NCBI RefSeq assembly: GCF_013372265.1 | Contig: NZ_CP054051.1 | Coordinates: 1,252,587 to 1,316,586, forward strand | Reading direction: 5' to 3' | DNA: 64,000 nucleotides | DNA from: Aliarcobacter cibarius | GTDB taxonomy: Bacteria > Campylobacterota > Campylobacteria > Campylobacterales > Arcobacteraceae | Part shown: positions 6,650-15,830 of the stretch, one piece after another | Numbering within the stretch: position 1 is the stretch's first letter | How the letters are laid out: the number at the start of each line of letters is the position of its first letter | Made by a program: the position numbers and the translations under genes | The notes under the pieces: model-generated | The model's input: only the letters and a program-made list of their open reading frames with translations | What the model was told of the DNA's origin: nothing | Database searches by the model: none

Positions 6650-6676
6650 AAATTAGACAGAATTTCTGTCTAATTT
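6650..6676. terminator. Bidirectional terminator between argG and dltA
   Basis: AAATTAGACAG (6650-6660) and CTGTCTAATTT (6666-6676) form an 11-bp perfect stem with a 5-base loop between convergent genes. A/T tracts flank both sides. The right arm overlaps the dltA stop codon. Confidence 0.8.
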
Positions 6677-8111
6677 ATAAACTCTTATAAAGATTAATCA
6701 ACTCATTTTTATCAATTTTATGGTTTGCATTGTAAGGAAAATTATCAATTTTTACAATATCTGAAGGTATCATATAATACGGAAGATTTTTTGAGATACT
6801 ATCTTTTAATTCTTCAATATTTATGTTATTTTTTGAAATTATAAAAGATACCAATTTTACAACTTCAGCTCCTCTTTTTAAAGCAATAGTTATAGCGTCT
6901 TCGATTAATTTGTTAGTTAAAATTTCTTTATCTATTTCCCCTAGTTCTATTCTATATCCGTGAAGTTTTATTAACTCATCTTTTCTATTTGCAAAAAATA
7001 GTAAACCATTTTCAAAATATCCAAAATCTCCTGTTTTGAAGCTTCTTTTTTCGTATTTTTTTTCAAATTTTTGACTATTTAATTCTTCGTTTTTAAAATA
7101 ACCAATTGATACATTGTCTCCTATAATTTCCATTTCTCCAATATTTTGTTCATCAATATTTAATAAATTTATTATAGTTCCTTCTTTTACATAACCAACT
7201 GGAAGACTTTTTGAGTATTTTTCTATAATTTCAGATGTAATTTCAACTAAAGTTGTAGCAACAGTAGCCTCTGTTGGACCGTATGTATTTAAAACTTTAG
7301 AGTCTGGAAAATTATTTTTTATTCTTTTTACAGTATTTGCTGGTAAGACTTCTCCACAAAATAGAAAAGTTTTTAAATCTTTTAAATTATTTTGATTAAA
7401 TACTTCAGAGAGTAAAAGTTTACTTATAAAAGATGGTGTTGAAACCCAAGAATCACAAGAATATTTTTTTAATCTTTCAAAATACTCAAGATGATTTTCT
7501 ATAGTATCTTTACTATTTAAAACAATAGTTGCACCTAAGCTTAAAAATCCAATCACCTCGTAAACAGATAAATCAAAACTAAAAGGTGCTTGATTCATAA
7601 AAACAGATTTATTTGAGAATCCAAAATCATTTGAAAGCCATTTTTGGAAATCCAAAATAGAATTTTGTGTTATTTGAACACCTTTTGGCTCTCCTGTACT
7701 TCCTGAAGTGAATATTATGTAAACTATTGGATCAGATAATTGATATGTTGTAGATATATTATTTTCATCAAAATGGATTTCATTTTCTATAGAATTTATT
7801 ATTATTGAAGATTTTACTATATCAACTATTTTATCAACTCTTGATTTTGGATAAATTGTATCAATAGGAATATAAGGATATCCCATGTTCATACAAGCAA
7901 CTATGCTTACAATGAAATCAGATTCTTTATGACCATAAATAATAATTGGATGACCTTTTGGAAGATTGTATTTTAAAATTTTATTTTTTAAAATTTCAAC
8001 TTTATCTTTAAATTCTTTCCATGTTAAATCTTCATTACTTCCACAAACAGCTAAATTATCAAAATCTTTTTCACACTCAACAAAATCCATTAGTTCTAAA
8101 TCAAATCTCAT
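6675..8111 (-). CDS. dltA: DltA, D-alanine--D-alanyl carrier protein ligase
   Basis: Adenylates D-alanine and loads it on the phosphopantetheine arm of DltC. This is a 478-residue adenylation-domain protein. A3 FTSGSTGEPKG is at 134-144, the NQAPFSFDLSVYE segment near 173-185 is characteristic of DltA, A5 NTYGPTEAT is at 275-283, and the A10 lysine is in NHKIDK near residue 465. It is last in the operon, and its ATG overlaps the dltB stop (ATGA). Other amino-acid adenylating enzymes are possible in principle, but the presence of dltB, C, D and X settles the assignment. Confidence 0.93.
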   Translation of the reverse strand: MRFDLELMDFVECEKDFDNLAVCGSNEDLTWKEFKDKVEILKNKILKYNLPKGHPIIIYGHKESDFIVSIVACMNMGYPYIPIDTIYPKSRVDKIVDIVKSSIIINSIENEIHFDENNISTTYQLSDPIVYIIFTSGSTGEPKGVQITQNSILDFQKWLSNDFGFSNKSVFMNQAPFSFDLSVYEVIGFLSLGATIVLNSKDTIENHLEYFERLKKYSCDSWVSTPSFISKLLLSEVFNQNNLKDLKTFLFCGEVLPANTVKRIKNNFPDSKVLNTYGPTEATVATTLVEITSEIIEKYSKSLPVGYVKEGTIINLLNIDEQNIGEMEIIGDNVSIGYFKNEELNSQKFEKKYEKRSFKTGDFGYFENGLLFFANRKDELIKLHGYRIELGEIDKEILTNKLIEDAITIALKRGAEVVKLVSFIISKNNINIEELKDSISKNLPYYMIPSDIVKIDNFPYNANHKIDKNELINLYKSL

Positions 8112-9247
8112 AAAGGAACCCTCCCACTAAAAAAATATAAAGCAAAAACTGCACCGTTTATCATTAAAAATCTTTTAATATTTACACTTAAAATTGGAGG
8201 AAATATTGAAAAATAATCAAAGCCACCTTTTTTTATATACAAAACATATGAGTTATGAATACTTGAATAAATGCCAAACAGAAAACCACTTAAAATAAAA
8301 TACCAAGTTAAACCATTCCACATACCCATAAGTAAAAATGTAGAAGTTATAGCAATGTTTTGTATAAGTAATTTTCTACCTTTTAAATAAGCAAAATTAT
8401 GAAGATATTTATAAAGTGGTTTAAAGAAATAGTCATTTAACCAGCTTCCAAGTGTAATATGAAATCTTCTCCAAAAATCTTGAGGATTAGGTGCTAAATA
8501 AGGATGATTAAAATTCATTGGAATAAAAATTCCCATCATAATACTAAGACCAACAGCCATTGCACTGTAGCCAGCAAAATCAAAGAATAGATAAACCGTA
8601 TAAGAATAAGCACTATTTACCATATCCAAAATATTAGTACTATTTTCATCAATTTTACTTAACCAGAACATTGTTACAAGCTCTGCAAAAATGAATTTAA
8701 ATAAAACACCAATAACTAAAATTTCCCAACCTTTTAATAAATTTGAAAAATTAAGATTTTCATAACCTTTTTGTAAATCTTCTTGAAATCTATATGATCT
8801 ATCTATTGGACCTGCAAGTAAAGTTGTTGGAAATAGTAAAAAAGATGTAAATTCAAAGAAAGACAATTTTCCATAATTTTGACTATCAACAATGGCTTGA
8901 ATAGTTCTAAATGTTATATAAGAAATACCTATTATTTTAAACATAGGATTTGCCATATCTATTTTATGTATAATCATTGGAAAAGCAATAACAATCATAG
9001 CGAAAAAAGTTTCTTGAAATTTGTTTGTAACAAATAACCAATATATAACATATGTATAAAGTAATATTAAAAAAAGTTCATAACTTTCAGGAATAGCAAA
9101 AAATATATAAGCTATAATCCCTATAAAAATTACCATTTTATAAGATATAACATTTTTTAATATATTTTTAAAAATATGTAAAAAAGCTATAAATGCAAAG
9201 CATATTAAAAAAAATCCAAGACCAGAAAATGGAAAGATATCTTCCAT
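8108..9247 (-). CDS. dltB: DltB, membrane-bound O-acyltransferase of D-alanylation, with unusual Asn at the second catalytic position
   Basis: Polytopic MBOAT protein of 379 residues, expected to pass D-alanine from DltC across the membrane. The re-entrant motif DFWRRFHITLGSWLNDYFF keeps its His (residue 263). The family motif MGxWHG reads MGMWNG here (residues 307-312), so the usually invariant active-site His is Asn311 (codon AAT). The start ATG overlaps the dltX stop as TAATG. The product ends soon after the last membrane segment and is slightly short for the family. Confidence 0.92.
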   Translation of the reverse strand: MEDIFPFSGLGFFLICFAFIAFLHIFKNILKNVISYKMVIFIGIIAYIFFAIPESYELFLILLYTYVIYWLFVTNKFQETFFAMIVIAFPMIIHKIDMANPMFKIIGISYITFRTIQAIVDSQNYGKLSFFEFTSFLLFPTTLLAGPIDRSYRFQEDLQKGYENLNFSNLLKGWEILVIGVLFKFIFAELVTMFWLSKIDENSTNILDMVNSAYSYTVYLFFDFAGYSAMAVGLSIMMGIFIPMNFNHPYLAPNPQDFWRRFHITLGSWLNDYFFKPLYKYLHNFAYLKGRKLLIQNIAITSTFLLMGMWNGLTWYFILSGFLFGIYSSIHNSYVLYIKKGGFDYFSIFPPILSVNIKRFLMINGAVFALYFFSGRVPL

Positions 9248-9387
9248 TAAAACTCCTCATAAACAAATTCTACTTCAGAATCTGTATCTTTACCATTTAA
9301 ATCGCTTATATTTTTTTCTATTAAAATAAAAGCAAAACCAATAATTAAAAGTAGATAGACGAAAAAATATTTCAAAAAATATTTCAA
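9247..9387 (-). CDS. dltX: DltX, small membrane component of D-alanylation
   Basis: A 46-residue reading frame between dltD and dltB, starting at a TTG with AAGGAAA seven bases before it. It is 10 bases after the dltD stop, and its TAA overlaps the dltB ATG. It reads MKYFLKYFFVYLLLIIGFAFILIEKN, a short basic head and one membrane span (residues 9-23), then a polar tail ending EFVYEEF. That ending matches the C-terminal FxYxxF motif of Gram-positive DltX, whose Tyr is thought to carry D-alanine between DltB and the acceptor. Size, topology, position and motif all agree, so despite the short length I regard it as a real gene. Confidence 0.87.
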   Translation of the reverse strand: MKYFLKYFFVYLLLIIGFAFILIEKNISDLNGKDTDSEVEFVYEEF

Positions 9388-9397
9388 AAAGATTTCC

Positions 9398-10513
9398 TTA
9401 TTTGTTAAAATGTTCAATGATCTTTTGGTTAACTTTTAGCCAACCTAATTCTCCTAAATGAACCATATCATGTAGGTTTCCTAATTCATAACTCTTTTTA
9501 TCGTAACTCCACATATTATAGAATTCATAGTTGTAACTTTCTACTTTGTCTTGTATGTTCTTGATTAAAATTTCCATTTGTTCTCTATTCTTTCCATAGG
9601 TATAAGGATGTAAATCTTGCATTATAAAAAGTGGTTTTATTTTGTAATTTTTTAGAGTTTCTAAAAGAGTTAAGAAATGTGTAAATTCTTCATTCTCTTC
9701 CAATGTTTTAGTCATTTCAATAGAGAAAGGAAAATAGTTTTTATTTATATTTGGTTCAATTACTCTTGTGTAGTAATCATTATTTATTCCAAAGTTATTA
9801 TTTGTCGATGGTAGTTCATATTTATGAGCTTCATCTTTTAGTTTTTCAAAATCAATATTTATATTTTGATATTCAAATTTATCATTAGTTTCATATTTTG
9901 AATCAAGATAGCTTATAATAGCTTTTTTAATATATCTATTAATAATATTTTTCTTATATTCATTTATATTATCACTATATACGTAGCTAGGTTCTTTTAT
10001 TAAACTTAGATTTTTTTGTACATAATTATTTATTTGCATTTTGATTTTTTCATCTATATTACTTGAAAAATATAGCCTATCCATCATTCCCACATACATA
10101 TACTCTAAAAATTTTGGAATTTTTGTACCATTATGATTTCCCGTGAACCAACTTGGAGAAATTAGAATTACAACTCTTGCATTGTTTTCAACTTTTTTAC
10201 TATTTAGTGCAGCCAATTGAGATAAAATAGCAAATTCTTGTTGTCCTTCATTACCTTGAACTCTAAGAGGAATTTGTAAATTATTAAAAAAATTTTGTGG
10301 AGTAAATTTTTGATTTTTAAAATCAAGTTCAGAAGATCCAAAAACTACAATCTTACCACTTTCTAAATCATTTTTTAGACTATGAGTTTTCTTTAAAGAT
10401 TCTAAAGACTCAAAATAGTGATTAAAAATATTATTTTTATTAAAATAAAAAATTATTATTACAGTAAAACAAGCAGTTAAAAAAGCAAGAAGGTTTAAAA
10501 ATAACCTACTCAC
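9398..10513 (-). CDS. dltD: DltD, D-alanyl transfer protein
   Basis: A 371-residue protein with one N-terminal membrane anchor (residues 4-24) and an extracytoplasmic SGNH-like domain. FGSSEL (58-63) contains the catalytic Ser. The Asp-His pair lies in LHDMVHLGELGW near the C-terminus. DltD performs the last transfer of D-alanine to the envelope acceptor, which is lipoteichoic acid in Gram-positives and unknown here. Its ATG overlaps the dltC stop (ATGA), and dltX follows by 10 bases. Confidence 0.92.
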   Translation of the reverse strand: MSRLFLNLLAFLTACFTVIIIFYFNKNNIFNHYFESLESLKKTHSLKNDLESGKIVVFGSSELDFKNQKFTPQNFFNNLQIPLRVQGNEGQQEFAILSQLAALNSKKVENNARVVILISPSWFTGNHNGTKIPKFLEYMYVGMMDRLYFSSNIDEKIKMQINNYVQKNLSLIKEPSYVYSDNINEYKKNIINRYIKKAIISYLDSKYETNDKFEYQNINIDFEKLKDEAHKYELPSTNNNFGINNDYYTRVIEPNINKNYFPFSIEMTKTLEENEEFTHFLTLLETLKNYKIKPLFIMQDLHPYTYGKNREQMEILIKNIQDKVESYNYEFYNMWSYDKKSYELGNLHDMVHLGELGWLKVNQKIIEHFNK

Positions 10514-10740
10514 TCTATTCTACTTTTAATATAATTTGCTAGTTTTTCAATACTATCAAAATTACTTACAATTATATCTCTTGTATCAATCTTAATATTA
10601 AATTCTTCTTCAAGCATCATAGCAAGATCAACAGTACCCATACTATCAATTAAATTTGATGTATAAAGGGGTTCATCATTTTCAAGCTTTTTAAAAGCCA
10701 ACTCTTCCACTAACGGTTTAATTCTATTTATTATATCCAT
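10510..10740 (-). CDS. dltC: DltC, D-alanyl carrier protein
   Basis: A 76-residue acyl-carrier-type protein. The phosphopantetheine attachment Ser is residue 33 in IDSMGTVDL. The acidic helix after it (MMLEEEFNIKI) is typical. It accepts D-alanine from DltA and presents it to DltB. It is first in the operon, with AGGAAAAG before the ATG and a TATAAT box upstream. The order here, C-D-X-B-A, differs from the Gram-positive X-A-B-C-D. Confidence 0.94.
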   Translation of the reverse strand: MDIINRIKPLVEELAFKKLENDEPLYTSNLIDSMGTVDLAMMLEEEFNIKIDTRDIIVSNFDSIEKLANYIKSRIE

Positions 10741-10892: not shown

Positions 10893-11393
10893 ATGATTTT
10901 GAAATTTAAAGAGTTTTATCCAGTTATTCATTCATCTGCTTGGATTGCTCCAAGTGCAGATTTAATAGGTAATATAGAAATTGGTGAAAATTCATCAGTT
11001 TGGTTTGGATGTGTTATTCGTTCAGATGTAAATGAAGTAAGGATTGGTAAAAATACAAATATTCAAGATCTAAGTATGATTCATACTGATACAAATACAA
11101 AAACAATTATTGGAGATAATGTAACAATCGGTCATAAAGTAATGCTTCATGGTTGTAAAATTGAAGATAATTGTTTAATTGGTATGAGTGCAACTATTTT
11201 AGATAATGCTGTAATTGGTCAAGGAAGTATTGTTGGAGCTAATTCATTAGTTACTTCAGGTAAAGTTTTTCCACCAAGAAGTTTGATTATGGGAAGTCCT
11301 GCTAAGGTTGTGAAAGAACTAACAGCAGAAGATGAGGAAAAATTTATAGCCCATGCACAACACTATGTTGAGTATAAAAATGAGTATAGATAG
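10893..11393 (+). CDS. Gamma-carbonic anhydrase family protein
   Basis: A 166-residue left-handed beta-helix protein built of hexapeptide repeats such as IGNIEIGENSSVWF and IGDNVTIG. The three zinc-ligand histidines of the family are present: His64 (SMIHT), and His81 and His86 (IGHKVMLHGC). It is likely a cytoplasmic trimer of the YrdA/CaiE-type branch, in which carbonic anhydrase activity is often weak or unproven. AGGAG lies before the ATG. Its last 50 bases overlap the 3' end of nikO on the other strand. Confidence 0.88.
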   Translation: MILKFKEFYPVIHSSAWIAPSADLIGNIEIGENSSVWFGCVIRSDVNEVRIGKNTNIQDLSMIHTDTNTKTIIGDNVTIGHKVMLHGCKIEDNCLIGMSATILDNAVIGQGSIVGANSLVTSGKVFPPRSLIMGSPAKVVKELTAEDEEKFIAHAQHYVEYKNEYR

Positions 11394-12042
11394 GCTCGTT
11401 TTTTAACGTTTTATCTTCTAATTTATATATTTTTGAAACTAATTTTTGTATGAAAGATTTATGATGAGAAACAATTATCATAGATTTTTCTATGCTATTT
11501 AAAATACTTAAGACTTTTTTCTCACTCTCTTCATCTAGAGCATTTGTTGGTTCATCTAAAAGTAAGATTTTTGGTTCTTTTACTAAAATTGCAGCAAGAG
11601 CTACAATTTTTTGTTCACCACCACTTAGTTCATAAATCACTCTATTTTCTAAATGTATAATATTTAATATTTTTAAGATATTTACACTCTTAGAATAAGC
11701 CTCTTTTTTATCAACTCCTAAAGTTAATAATGAAAACATAATATCTTCTATTACAGTTATGCAAAGAAAAAAATTACTTACGTCTTGAGGTAAATAACCT
11801 ATTTCATCTCTATATTTTTCAAAATCTTTTTTATTTTTTATTTGGTTGTGGAAAAGAGTTATTTCTCCATTTGTTGGTTCTTCTAATCCTGCAATTATTT
11901 TTATCAAAGTTGATTTACCAACTCCATTTTGTCCAATAATTGCCATTTTTTCTTTATGTCCTAAATTTAAATTTATATTTTTAAATAAGTAGTTATTATT
12001 TTTTTTATAAGAAATATTTTTTAAATTCATTGAACAACTCAT
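11344..12042 (-). CDS. nikO: NikO/CbiO, ATP-binding protein of ECF nickel transporter
   Basis: ABC ATPase of 232 residues: Walker A GQNGVGKST (37-45), signature ELSGGEQKIV, Walker B ILLLDEPTNALD and switch His in VSHHKSF. With NikQ it energises metal uptake through NikM. The ATG overlaps the nikQ stop (ATGA). It is the last gene of nikK-M-L-Q-O. Nickel rather than cobalt is inferred from NikK/NikL and the nearby [NiFe] hydrogenase genes. Confidence 0.9.
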   Translation of the reverse strand: MSCSMNLKNISYKKNNNYLFKNINLNLGHKEKMAIIGQNGVGKSTLIKIIAGLEEPTNGEITLFHNQIKNKKDFEKYRDEIGYLPQDVSNFFLCITVIEDIMFSLLTLGVDKKEAYSKSVNILKILNIIHLENRVIYELSGGEQKIVALAAILVKEPKILLLDEPTNALDEESEKKVLSILNSIEKSMIIVSHHKSFIQKLVSKIYKLEDKTLKNEPIYTHFYTQHSVVHGL

Positions 12043-12683
12043 AAAACTACCTTTAGTAAAAATATAAAATTTAAAATAAAAATTAATATAAAATCAAATT
12101 TTTTAATTTCATTGCTGTAGCTTAGAAATATCTCATTTTTAAAGCCTCTTAATAAAAAATTCTCTTTTAATTGTTCGGATTTAGTAATAGTTTTTAAAAA
12201 AAGTATTCCAAAAATATTACCATAAGTTTTATATGTAAATATATCTGTTTTCGCTTTGAAATTTCTTGCTTTTAGTGATGTTCTAATATTTTTTAACTCT
12301 AAATTTAATTCAAATATTAGTTTAACACTAAAATACAAAGAAGATACAAATTTTTTTGGAAATCTAAGTATCATAAATCCTTTTACTATATCAAAACCAT
12401 TTGAAGAAAAAAATAACAAAAGGTTAAATAAAATAATCATATTTACTTTTAAAAATAAATTTAACGCCTCCATAAAATTTGTTTCAAAATAGAAAAAAAC
12501 AGATAAAAATAGTATGAAAAAGTTTAAAAATATTAGTTTTTTTAAAATTATAAAAATATTATCTAGATTTAAAAATATTAAAAAAATTATAGGAACAATA
12601 TAAAAAACTTCTAAGTTTGAAAAACTTAAAAGTAAGCTAAAAATAAAAGCACTACTAAGTGCAATGGCTGGATTTAAATTCAA
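12039..12683 (-). CDS. nikQ: NikQ/CbiQ, transmembrane T-component of ECF nickel transporter
   Basis: A 214-residue membrane protein with about five hydrophobic segments and a cytoplasmic region that includes SLKARNFKAK, the basic coupling segment typical of CbiQ-type T components, followed by LLRGF. It couples ATP hydrolysis by NikO to the substrate-binding NikM. It overlaps both nikL (upstream) and nikO (downstream) by four bases. The sequence is divergent, so the call rests partly on context. Confidence 0.82.
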   Translation of the reverse strand: MNLNPAIALSSAFIFSLLLSFSNLEVFYIVPIIFLIFLNLDNIFIILKKLIFLNFFILFLSVFFYFETNFMEALNLFLKVNMIILFNLLLFFSSNGFDIVKGFMILRFPKKFVSSLYFSVKLIFELNLELKNIRTSLKARNFKAKTDIFTYKTYGNIFGILFLKTITKSEQLKENFLLRGFKNEIFLSYSNEIKKFDFILIFILNFIFLLKVVL

Positions 12684-13162
12684 TTTTTTACTTTTTTTAT
12701 AAATATAAAAATCAAAACAATTAAAACTAATCCAAAAATTACTTTGAAAATTTCAAAGTAGTTTAATTGTTCTTCTAAAACTTTAACTTGATTTTTGAGA
12801 GCCCTATTCTCTTCTATTAATCCTTCTATTTCTTTATTGATTTTTGCTATTTGTATAGTTTTTTCTTCATCTTTTTGTTCTTGAAATCTTATTTTTTTAT
12901 TTACTGTATGCCCATTTCCAGCATCTACAATAACTTTTAAATCATTTATTGATGTTTTGTAGTTATATTCTCCTTTTTCATCTAAAATACCTTCAAAAAG
13001 TAATTTTTCATTTGATTCTATTTTAAATTTACAATTAACACATGCTTTAGCATTCGCAAAATAGGATTTAATATAAAGATTATCATCTTTTAAATCCAAA
13101 AATAAATTCACTTTATGAGCAAATAGTAATATTGGTAAAAAAAGTATTAATAAAAATTTCAT
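12680..13162 (-). CDS. nikL: NikL-like membrane-anchored accessory protein of nickel transporter
   Basis: A 160-residue protein with a signal peptide (about 1-15, ending LLFAH), a compact extracytoplasmic domain with the pair ACVNC (Cys41, Cys44), a coiled-coil region (about 95-130) and a C-terminal membrane span (about 137-157). Size, topology and position between NikM and NikQ match the NikL/CbiN-like component of NikKMLQO systems. The mature chain probably begins at or next to His16, which could take part in Ni binding; that is inference. Confidence 0.75.
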   Translation of the reverse strand: MKFLLILFLPILLFAHKVNLFLDLKDDNLYIKSYFANAKACVNCKFKIESNEKLLFEGILDEKGEYNYKTSINDLKVIVDAGNGHTVNKKIRFQEQKDEEKTIQIAKINKEIEGLIEENRALKNQVKVLEEQLNYFEIFKVIFGLVLIVLIFIFIKKVKN

Positions 13163-13761
13163 ATATTTAATTCCTTTAATAAATTTGGCATAGCTTTTTT
13201 AATATATAAAAATAAAAAAAGTGTAACTAACCCTTCTAAAATCATTGTAGGAATGTTTATTACAAATATTGAATATGCAACGTTTTCATATTCATTTTTT
13301 GAAAATATTAAAAGAAAAAATAGGATAATTGAAGATATTAATATCCCACTAAAACCTACAAGAAAAAATTTAATTTTTTCATTTAATTTTTGTAAAATTC
13401 TTAGATTAAAAAGTAAAAATACTAAATATGAAGACACACCCATAATTAAAATATTTGCACCTATAGAACTAACTCCTCCAAATCCTAATAATAAAGCTTG
13501 TAAGATAAGTGCTAAAGAGATTGAAAATATACTAATACTTCCTAAAAATATACCTATAAAACCCAATAACATTAAATGAATTTGTGTTGGTCCAAAAGGA
13601 ATATGTATAAAAGAAGCCACAAAAAATAGTGCACTAAAAGCTGAAGCTAATGCTATTTTATCGTTTGACAAATTTTTAAATGAATAAAATAAAAAACCAA
13701 AAGCTACAACAGTTGATACTATTGTAACTTCTAAAGTTAAAATACCATCACTTATATGCAT
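13159..13761 (-). CDS. nikM: NikM/CbiM, substrate-binding S-component of ECF nickel transporter
   Basis: A 200-residue polytopic protein that starts MHISDG, the conserved N-terminus of the CbiM/NikM family, in which the amino terminus and His2 bind the metal. A second conserved stretch, HIPFGPTQIHLML (His53, His62), supplies further ligands. This start is therefore certain. It is overlapped by nikL and preceded by nikK with only one base between. Confidence 0.93.
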   Translation of the reverse strand: MHISDGILTLEVTIVSTVVAFGFLFYSFKNLSNDKIALASAFSALFFVASFIHIPFGPTQIHLMLLGFIGIFLGSISIFSISLALILQALLLGFGGVSSIGANILIMGVSSYLVFLLFNLRILQKLNEKIKFFLVGFSGILISSIILFFLLIFSKNEYENVAYSIFVINIPTMILEGLVTLFLFLYIKKAMPNLLKELNI

Positions 13762-14770: not shown

Positions 14771-15830
14771 TTAAAAAAAATGGGGTCTGAATTATTCTTT
14801 TTTCTTATAGCTAACTAAGTAATCATCAACAATCTTTAACTTCAAACTTTTACTCAAACCTCTATGTATTTTTATTAATATTTTCAATGGAGAAAATACT
14901 CCACCCTCAATTAAATTTGTTGTATTTGAAAGATTTAATTTCTTATAATTTTTATAGGTAAAAAGATATGGTAAATTATTTCTAATACTACGATAAGCAG
15001 CTACAAGTTTTTTATGAGTATATGAACTTTTTTGACTATCAGGATGAATAGTAATTTCATCTAAAAAAGATTTATATTTTATATACCAAATATCCAATGC
15101 TTTTGTAAATCTATTCTCATCACTATATTTTAATCTAGTCATAATTTTCTTTAACTCTTGGCTAGCTTCTAGTTTTGGATGTAATGTTATATATCTTTGA
15201 ATAATACGTTTCTGATGGAAATGACACATTTGTACTGGATAATCTTTAAATACGCTGTTAACACCTCTCTTACCATATATTGTTACAGATAAAATTGTAT
15301 ATCCTAGATTCAATAATTCAACAAGTAAGTATTTATAATCATCTACTCTTTCTGTTTGTATATGTTTCCAAATTAATATCTCATGAGTGATACTATCCAT
15401 AAAAACTAAAGTACCCAACTTATCTTTTCTCTTACCATAGAAAGTTGCATCACATATTAAATTTACTGCTCTTGGATTATGTACCTTTGCAATAGGAAGA
15501 TATTCTTTAATTTTATAATGAACCCATTGGATAGATTTATTGTATTTAGTAGCTAAATCTTGTAAAGTTTGTCTATGATAAACATACTCTTTGAAAAGAG
15601 AATTTTCTAGTTTTTCAGGTCTTCTTTTTGATTGAAATTTTTTACCACAATTATTACATTGATAACGTTGAATTTCATTTCTTTTACCAATCTTTTTTGT
15701 GTTTTTTGATAAGCATTTTGGACATATTTTACTATTTTTTTACAGACATCTGTAGATAATCCTTTTTAAACAACCATAGTATCGAAGCTAGCTTAACTTT
15801 TCAGACCCCATTTTTTTTAATTAAGCCAAA
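14761..15830. mobile_element. IS element, 1070 bp, with 31-bp perfect inverted repeats (IS256-like with zinc ribbon)
   Basis: The left end 14761-14791 and right end 15800-15830 are perfect reverse complements over 31 bp. The outer part of each is TTTGGCTTAATT and the inner part GGGGTCTGAA. One transposase gene fills the space on the minus strand, with its stop directly against the left repeat. No target duplication is visible: the left flank is GATCTTTT and the right flank AAATATTT if the ends start at GGCTT. This fits an IS-linked deletion of the host gene. The family call is from memory of Zn-ribbon IS256-like transposases in this phylum. Confidence 0.85.
14792..15749 (-). pseudogene. Frameshifted zinc-ribbon DDE transposase
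   Basis: The natural start is an ATG at 15749 with AAAAGGA before it. It reads MSVKK and stops at once, because a run of seven A (15735-15741) is one base too long. With six A the frame reads MSVKNSKICPKC and continues unbroken for 318 residues: zinc ribbon (CPKC...CNNC), helix-turn-helix (TLQDLATKYNKS), DDE core with NLICDATF and MCHFHQKR, and a tail NTTNLIEGG. The second acidic residue, expected in a DGxxG context, appears as TIYGKRG. The copy is probably inactive unless A-tract slippage restores the frame. The open part after the shift starts only at an internal TTG (15418). Confidence 0.75.

Follow-up and report, generated by a model that had tools for sequence, protein, structure and literature searches.

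A dltX gene in the dlt operon of Aliarcobacter cibarius, next to a DltB with asparagine at the kinked-helix histidine position

The dlt operon and the frame between dltD and dltB

Five dlt genes lie head to tail and tightly packed on the minus strand of the window, the whole 64,000-nucleotide stretch of Aliarcobacter cibarius DNA analysed here. The gene starts in this and the other dlt operons are inferred ones.

10510..10740, minus strand: dltC, D-alanyl carrier protein with the phosphopantetheine serine in DSMG (PF00550, E 2.5e-6), conserved in 17 loci
9398..10513, minus strand: dltD, SGNH-type D-alanyl transferase (PF04914, E 6.3e-49, 167.6 bits; relatives 6pfx and 3bma)
9247..9387, minus strand: dltX-like gene, 46 aa, TTG start, predicted single span, C-terminal FVYEEF with Tyr43 as candidate acyl-accepting residue
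8108..9247, minus strand: dltB, MBOAT (PF03062, E 4.1e-13; TIGR04091, E 1.5e-65), with His263, Asn311 and Ser320
8315..8317, minus strand: codon of DltB Asn311 (in MGMWNGLTW), position derived from the dltB start (9247)
6675..8111, minus strand: dltA, D-alanine adenylating enzyme (TIGR01734, E 3.2e-123), with Asp180, Leu181, Tyr184 and Cys252

The catalytic motifs are kept in DltC (the serine), DltD (GSSEL and DxVH) and DltA (the D-Ala pocket residues Asp, Leu and Cys). In DltD, GSSEL stands at residue 59 and DMVHLGELG at residue 349, and the N-terminus forms a membrane anchor. DltB scores 49.7 bits against PF03062 (cut-off 27) and, over its full length, 221.9 bits against TIGR04091, which is below the curated equivalog cut-off of 375; the DltD score is also below its curated equivalog cut-off. 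A scan of the operon region did not find a terminator-like site, and promoter-like sites occurred there only at shuffle frequency. Elsewhere in the window, genes for an ABC ATPase and for CbiQ-like and CbiM-like proteins make up a nickel/cobalt uptake cluster of ECF type close to hypA and hypE (11344-13761), and an IS66-type transposase-like fragment that stays below the Pfam cut-off lies at 14792-15418.

An earlier note on this DNA had reported a 46-residue, TTG-started frame between dltD and dltB with a good ribosome site, a TAATG overlap with dltB, one membrane span and an FVYEEF end, in a Gram-negative bacterium, and all of this is borne out. The frame runs on the minus strand from the TTG at 9387 to 9247 and reads MKYFLKYFFVYLLLIIGFAFILIEKNISDLNGKDTDSEVEFVYEEF, followed by a stop, and the plus strand at 9247-9387 is interrupted by stops. 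The TTG lies 10 nt downstream of the end of dltD and is preceded on its 5' side by the Shine-Dalgarno sequence AAGGA, and the TAA stop overlaps the dltB ATG as TAATG. A further TTG upstream, from which the ORF-finder listing gives the frame 56 codons, is not conserved in the genus. Hydropathy peaks at 2.5 over a 19-residue stretch starting at residue 5, and the charge is +2 at the N-terminus and -6 in the C-terminal tail, a profile that fits a predicted single N-in/C-out span. Endings of the FxYxxF type occur in 2 of the 685 open frames of at least 30 codons in the window, against 0.5 per window expected from an order-1 simulation, and the C-terminal motif by itself is poor evidence for a dltX gene. 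A search of the frame against Pfam and NCBIfam gave no match, even at E = 10.

DltX in the genus and in other Gram-negative bacteria

The evidence that decides for a gene is conservation rather than the motif. The earlier note had proposed looking for the frame beside dltB in related dlt loci, and all 19 genus dlt loci that extend this far contain it, each time with exactly 46 codons, a TTG or ATG start and a C-terminus that reads FVYEEF or FVYEAF. These 19 loci encode 17 distinct proteins in which 18 of the 46 columns are invariant, including F41, V42, Y43, E44 and F46. Compared with the window copy, the genus copies show dN of 0.14-0.29 and dS of 0.58-2.0, with pairwise dN/dS mostly about 0.1-0.4. 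A profile of the frame matches 19 of the 31 genus genomes, all of which possess dltD, and gives no match in the dlt-less genomes of the genus. DltD itself is present in 20 of the 31, and in the sole dltD-positive genome lacking a dltX match (G404) the contig with dltD is cut off. Conservation across the genus loci identifies the frame as a real protein-coding gene, and its assignment as a DltX-type gene is upheld. The order C-D-X-B-A is kept in all 17 of the longer genus loci, and their genomic contexts differ. Among 397 sampled Campylobacterota genomes DltD is matched in 15, of which 13 belong to the genus of the window; the other two matches are weak and were rejected as other MBOAT-SGNH pairs, in which the motif is fused to the MBOAT.

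The profile search with which the earlier note had proposed to confirm the frame does not recover it: the Pfam DltX model PF12459 gives no match to the 46-residue sequence, which stays below the cut-off, and across all genus genomes it gives only sub-threshold matches, none of them at the dltX frame. PF12459 also fails on the other Gram-negative DltX proteins tested, in keeping with the description of this DltX as hidden, and a DltX-like frame of C. difficile likewise falls below its cut-off. Profile-profile alignment gives a probability of 97.9% between genus DltX and other Gram-negative DltX, and of 96.7-96.8% between Gram-negative DltX (including the genus) and Gram-positive DltX; the genus-only profile reaches only 67.8% against the latter, a modest resemblance. 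Comparison of the DltX profile with the PDB returned only chance matches to Derlin.

Gram-positive DltX (PF12459, in dltXABCD operons) resembles the protein described here in size, in its single span, in its C-terminal FxYxxF and in its operon with dltA, dltB, dltC and dltD. It differs in that its gene precedes dltA, whereas dltX of the window lies between dltD and dltB; genus DltX also has a longer acidic linker, and its motif is F-V-Y-E-(E/A)-F rather than mostly F-I-Y-N-E-F. In Gram-positive bacteria, the tyrosine of the FXYXXF motif accepts D-Ala and hands it to DltD, and PatA forms the corresponding acetyl-Tyr in a fused motif (PMC12148441). The PatA/AlgI O-acetylation systems thus likewise combine an MBOAT with an SGNH partner and an acyl-Tyr in a C-terminal FxYxxF, but they have the motif fused to the MBOAT, use acetyl-CoA as donor and keep the histidine in WHG.

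Gram-negative D-alanylation as such is not new: dlt genes have been described in Dickeya, Pectobacterium and Photorhabdus (PMC3544676, PMC5541007), and D-alanylation is known from the dra locus of Bordetella pertussis (PMC4448142, PMC9858536). Among the best 80 of 458 confirmed loci from a DltB-alignment scan of species genomes are operons of Aliarcobacter, a Sulfurovum MAG, about two dozen Bacteroidota, a Chlorobiota MAG, Bordetella and its relatives, and Firmicutes. Within these 80 loci, the Gram-negative operons are arranged C-D-X-B-A, apart from one D-C-X-B-A operon and one with two dltD genes, and those of Firmicutes are mostly X-A-B-C-D. A DltX-type frame directly precedes dltB in 30 of the Gram-negative loci in this set, namely in the Sulfurovum, Bacteroidota, Chlorobiota and Bordetella operons that include this stretch; beyond the genus these proteins end in F(V/I/Q)Y(Q/A)(Q/K/A)F. 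In the operon of the Sulfurovum MAG (L052 255-2875), a tandem dltD pair precedes dltX. The order C-D-X-B-A had been described as rearranged relative to Firmicutes; it does differ from X-A-B-C-D, but it is not peculiar to this bacterium, as D-X-B is the general Gram-negative arrangement, found in Bacteroidota, Chlorobiota, Bordetella, Campylobacterota and on enterobacterial plasmids.

The Gram-negative operon is patchy in its distribution. In the genus Bordetella it occurs in 8 of 15 genomes, with the dltX frame in all eight; in random samples, each including its seed genome, it was present in 1 of 369 Bordetella-class genomes and in 2-3 of 296 from Bacteroidota. Bordetella-genus genomes share with the window the gene set and its order, the DltX-like frame and a DltB with WNG; their DltX is shorter (41 aa, ending FQYQQF), and their DltB has only about 33-36% identity with that of the window. 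In several Bordetella genomes (L171-L177), DltD is matched a second time, close to a further DltX-like frame with FQYQQF, and one copy has an internal stop. The dltBAC genes and dltD of Dickeya, Pectobacterium and Photorhabdus, like those of the window, are D-alanylation genes of Gram-negative bacteria, but in D. dadantii dltD is listed separately from dltBAC, unlike in the window. One and the same dlt operon, lying amid insertion sequences, is found on plasmids of Klebsiella electrica and Enterobacter cloacae (L180 and L181, 4652-8704 in each), with the order D-X-B-A-C in place of the C-D-X-B-A of the window. The E. cloacae plasmid with the operon is conjugative, and on a K. pneumoniae plasmid the operon copy is split across the record start (L183 1-2243). 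The plasmid DltX has 40 residues, ends FEYQKF and is labelled "hypothetical protein" by RefSeq in the annotated operons checked. The plasmid operon is absent from the E. coli collection, and a tblastn search of plasmids with DltD gave no match.

Asparagine at the MBOAT histidine position of DltB

Aligned with DltB of S. thermophilus (6bug alignment), the DltB of the window has His263 in the place of His289, Asn311 in the place of His336 and Ser320 in the place of Tyr345. At the His336 position, asparagine is present in all 53 Gram-negative DltB rows (some genomes are represented twice) and histidine in all 44 Gram-positive rows. The exchange of Tyr345 for serine and of one arginine for proline divides the Gram-negative from the Gram-positive rows just as completely, and the equivalent of His289 and the remaining MBOAT core are invariant. 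About 20 residues past Asn311, the pair His331-Asn332 (approximately 8252-8257, minus strand) is present in almost every Gram-negative DltB and in none of the Gram-positive ones, and it is possible that a compensating residue lies here. The predicted structure of the window DltB (pLDDT 90.4) superimposes on solved DltB structures (8jem, 6bug) with a TM-score of 0.86, and the model is that of a normal MBOAT fold.

DltB proteins with asparagine form one clade (support 99/96), which requires one change on the tree, and the asparagine would be the derived state if the root is right, the PatA-like outgroup having histidine. A Verrucomicrobia MBOAT (L120) with histidine and no DltX nearby falls among Firmicutes with weak support. 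The plasmid and Bordetella-genus copies of DltB also read WNG. As a control, 33 other MBOATs from Gram-negative dlt genomes and from the genus, including the PatA-like MBOAT of the window genome, were compared; all 33 keep WHG, and in nearly all of them the MBOAT itself ends in a fused FxYxxF.

His336 has been described as an invariant active-site residue (PMC11035591). Activity is lost in PatA H315A (PMC12148441), function is abolished in Gup1 H447L (PMC5831804), and mutation of the equivalent histidine has been reported to abolish DltB function also (PMC12148441, PMC5831804). A review from 2016 named HHATL, which has leucine, as the sole exception found to the MBOAT histidine (PMC5831804). 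Mammalian HHATL is like Gram-negative DltB in having lost this residue naturally; it differs in that its leucine form is possibly inactive (PMC5831804), whereas the bacterial clade carries asparagine in an operon whose relatives show phenotypes. In ACAT, DGAT and PORCN, the horizontal helix carries the asparagine and the kinked helix the histidine (PMC11035591), and by alignment the placement in Gram-negative DltB is the reverse. In the literature covered by a search that was not exhaustive, no earlier report of the asparagine substitution in DltB was found. As every sampled Gram-negative DltB is without the histidine, either the chemistry runs differently in these proteins or the textbook role of the residue is wrong.

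The earlier note had described the operon as a full D-alanyl transfer machine. The gene set is indeed complete, with dltA, dltB, dltC, dltD and dltX all present, but since its DltB lacks the supposedly catalytic histidine, completeness alone does not show standard chemistry.

A proposed D-alanyl shuttle, its cargo and its acceptor

We consider it probable that the locus encodes a DltX in a C-D-X-B-A operon of Gram-negative type, which would act as a D-alanyl shuttle with a DltB that works in the absence of the kinked-helix histidine. The chemistry, direction, cargo and acceptor that we infer are as follows. DltA would adenylate D-alanine and load it onto DltC; DltB would transfer the D-alanyl group through the inner membrane onto Tyr43 of the FVYEEF motif in DltX, and DltX would hand it over to the serine of DltD. 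An anionic polymer of the envelope, most likely a glycan of LPS/LOS type or another one facing the periplasm, would then be esterified by DltD, which would make the surface less negatively charged. In the whole lineage the DltB transfer would take place with asparagine (Asn311 in the window) where the kinked-helix histidine is otherwise found; His263, which sits at the horizontal-helix tip, would be the base, and Asn311 and Ser320 would position the tyrosine and the thioester.

Published phenotypes of related loci suggest that DltB of the asparagine type is still active: a dltB mutant of D. dadantii shows 99% mortality under polymyxin (PMC3544676), and the dra locus of B. pertussis is reported to put D-Ala into an outer membrane component (PMC4448142, PMC9858536). 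The link to these two bacteria is by way of gene content, gene order and close relatives. The retained equivalent of His289 is probably the residue through which such a DltB works. Whether the MBOAT histidine is dispensable altogether, with an active clade that has asparagine and serine instead and a histidine of the horizontal helix as base, we regard as an even bet.

An unlikely alternative is that the operon is intact but the asparagine DltB serves as a scaffold or channel, with DltX being charged in some other way or DltD using another donor. The MBOATs tested were inactivated by a change of the histidine, as in PatA H315A (PMC12148441) and Gup1 H447L (PMC5831804), the active-site Tyr345 is gone as well, being serine here, and the resistance of the D. 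dadantii dltD mutant, which equals that of the wild type, unlike that of the dltB mutant, allows for a Gram-negative pathway that differs from the Gram-positive one (PMC5541007). Against this, the strong phenotype in D. dadantii belongs to the dltB mutant, the MBOAT core is otherwise invariant, the His289 equivalent included, and in the Gram-negative operons examined the tyrosine of DltX is kept beside the asparagine DltB, which makes little sense if charging does not depend on DltB. A working DltB is favoured because, with an inactive one, no enzyme would be left to charge the conserved tyrosine of DltX.

The cargo could also be something else than D-alanine, either a different amino acid such as glycine or an acyl group, with the shuttle chemistry unchanged. 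In an alignment with DltA of B. cereus (3fcc/3e7w), the window DltA keeps Asp180, Leu181 and Cys252 and has Tyr184 in the place of methionine; the roles of these pocket residues, including that of the cysteine in excluding L-Ala, have been described (PMC8972799). This change from the methionine of Gram-positive DltA to tyrosine, present in the genus and in Bordetella, would fit a different cargo, as would the exchange in part of the Bacteroidota (L054, L057-L060, L065, L067, L069, L071 and L078) of the cysteine that selects between D- and L-alanine for methionine, isoleucine or alanine, with differences in neighbouring pocket residues. In those Bacteroidota the cargo may be a different amino acid. 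For the operon of the window, however, this reading is quite unlikely: genus DltA retains Asp, Leu and the L-Ala-excluding Cys, and Bordetella has the same Asp-Leu-Tyr-Cys pocket as the genus and a dra locus reported to incorporate D-alanine (PMC4448142). Finally, the chance that dltX is an accidental open frame or a leader peptide between dltD and dltB is close to nil, for although it is short, TTG-started and without a family match, and a chance FxYxxF ending is to be expected in about one of every two windows, its length, start position, motif and purifying selection are kept in 19 loci, and equivalent frames are present in several other lineages.

For the acceptor in the proposed D-alanyl shuttle, a teichoic-type glycerophosphotransferase (PF04464) was not found in the window genome, and across the genus this family shows no association with dlt. 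Around the Bacteroidota operons there is no constant partner gene, yet one has PagL as a neighbour and another a glycosyltransferase and an aminotransferase, which hints at LPS or a polysaccharide as acceptor.

With DltX, Gram-negative D-alanylation would gain its missing shuttle protein, one that curated models do not recognise. The lineage with asparagine DltB would amount to a natural experiment on MBOAT catalysis, and its members include the Bordetella dra and soft-rot dlt systems, for which D-alanine or antimicrobial-peptide phenotypes have been reported. The inhibitor m-AMSA contacts His289, His336 and Tyr345 of DltB (PMC11035591), and the identity of the base histidine would matter for MBOATs as a whole and for DltB inhibitors of this kind.
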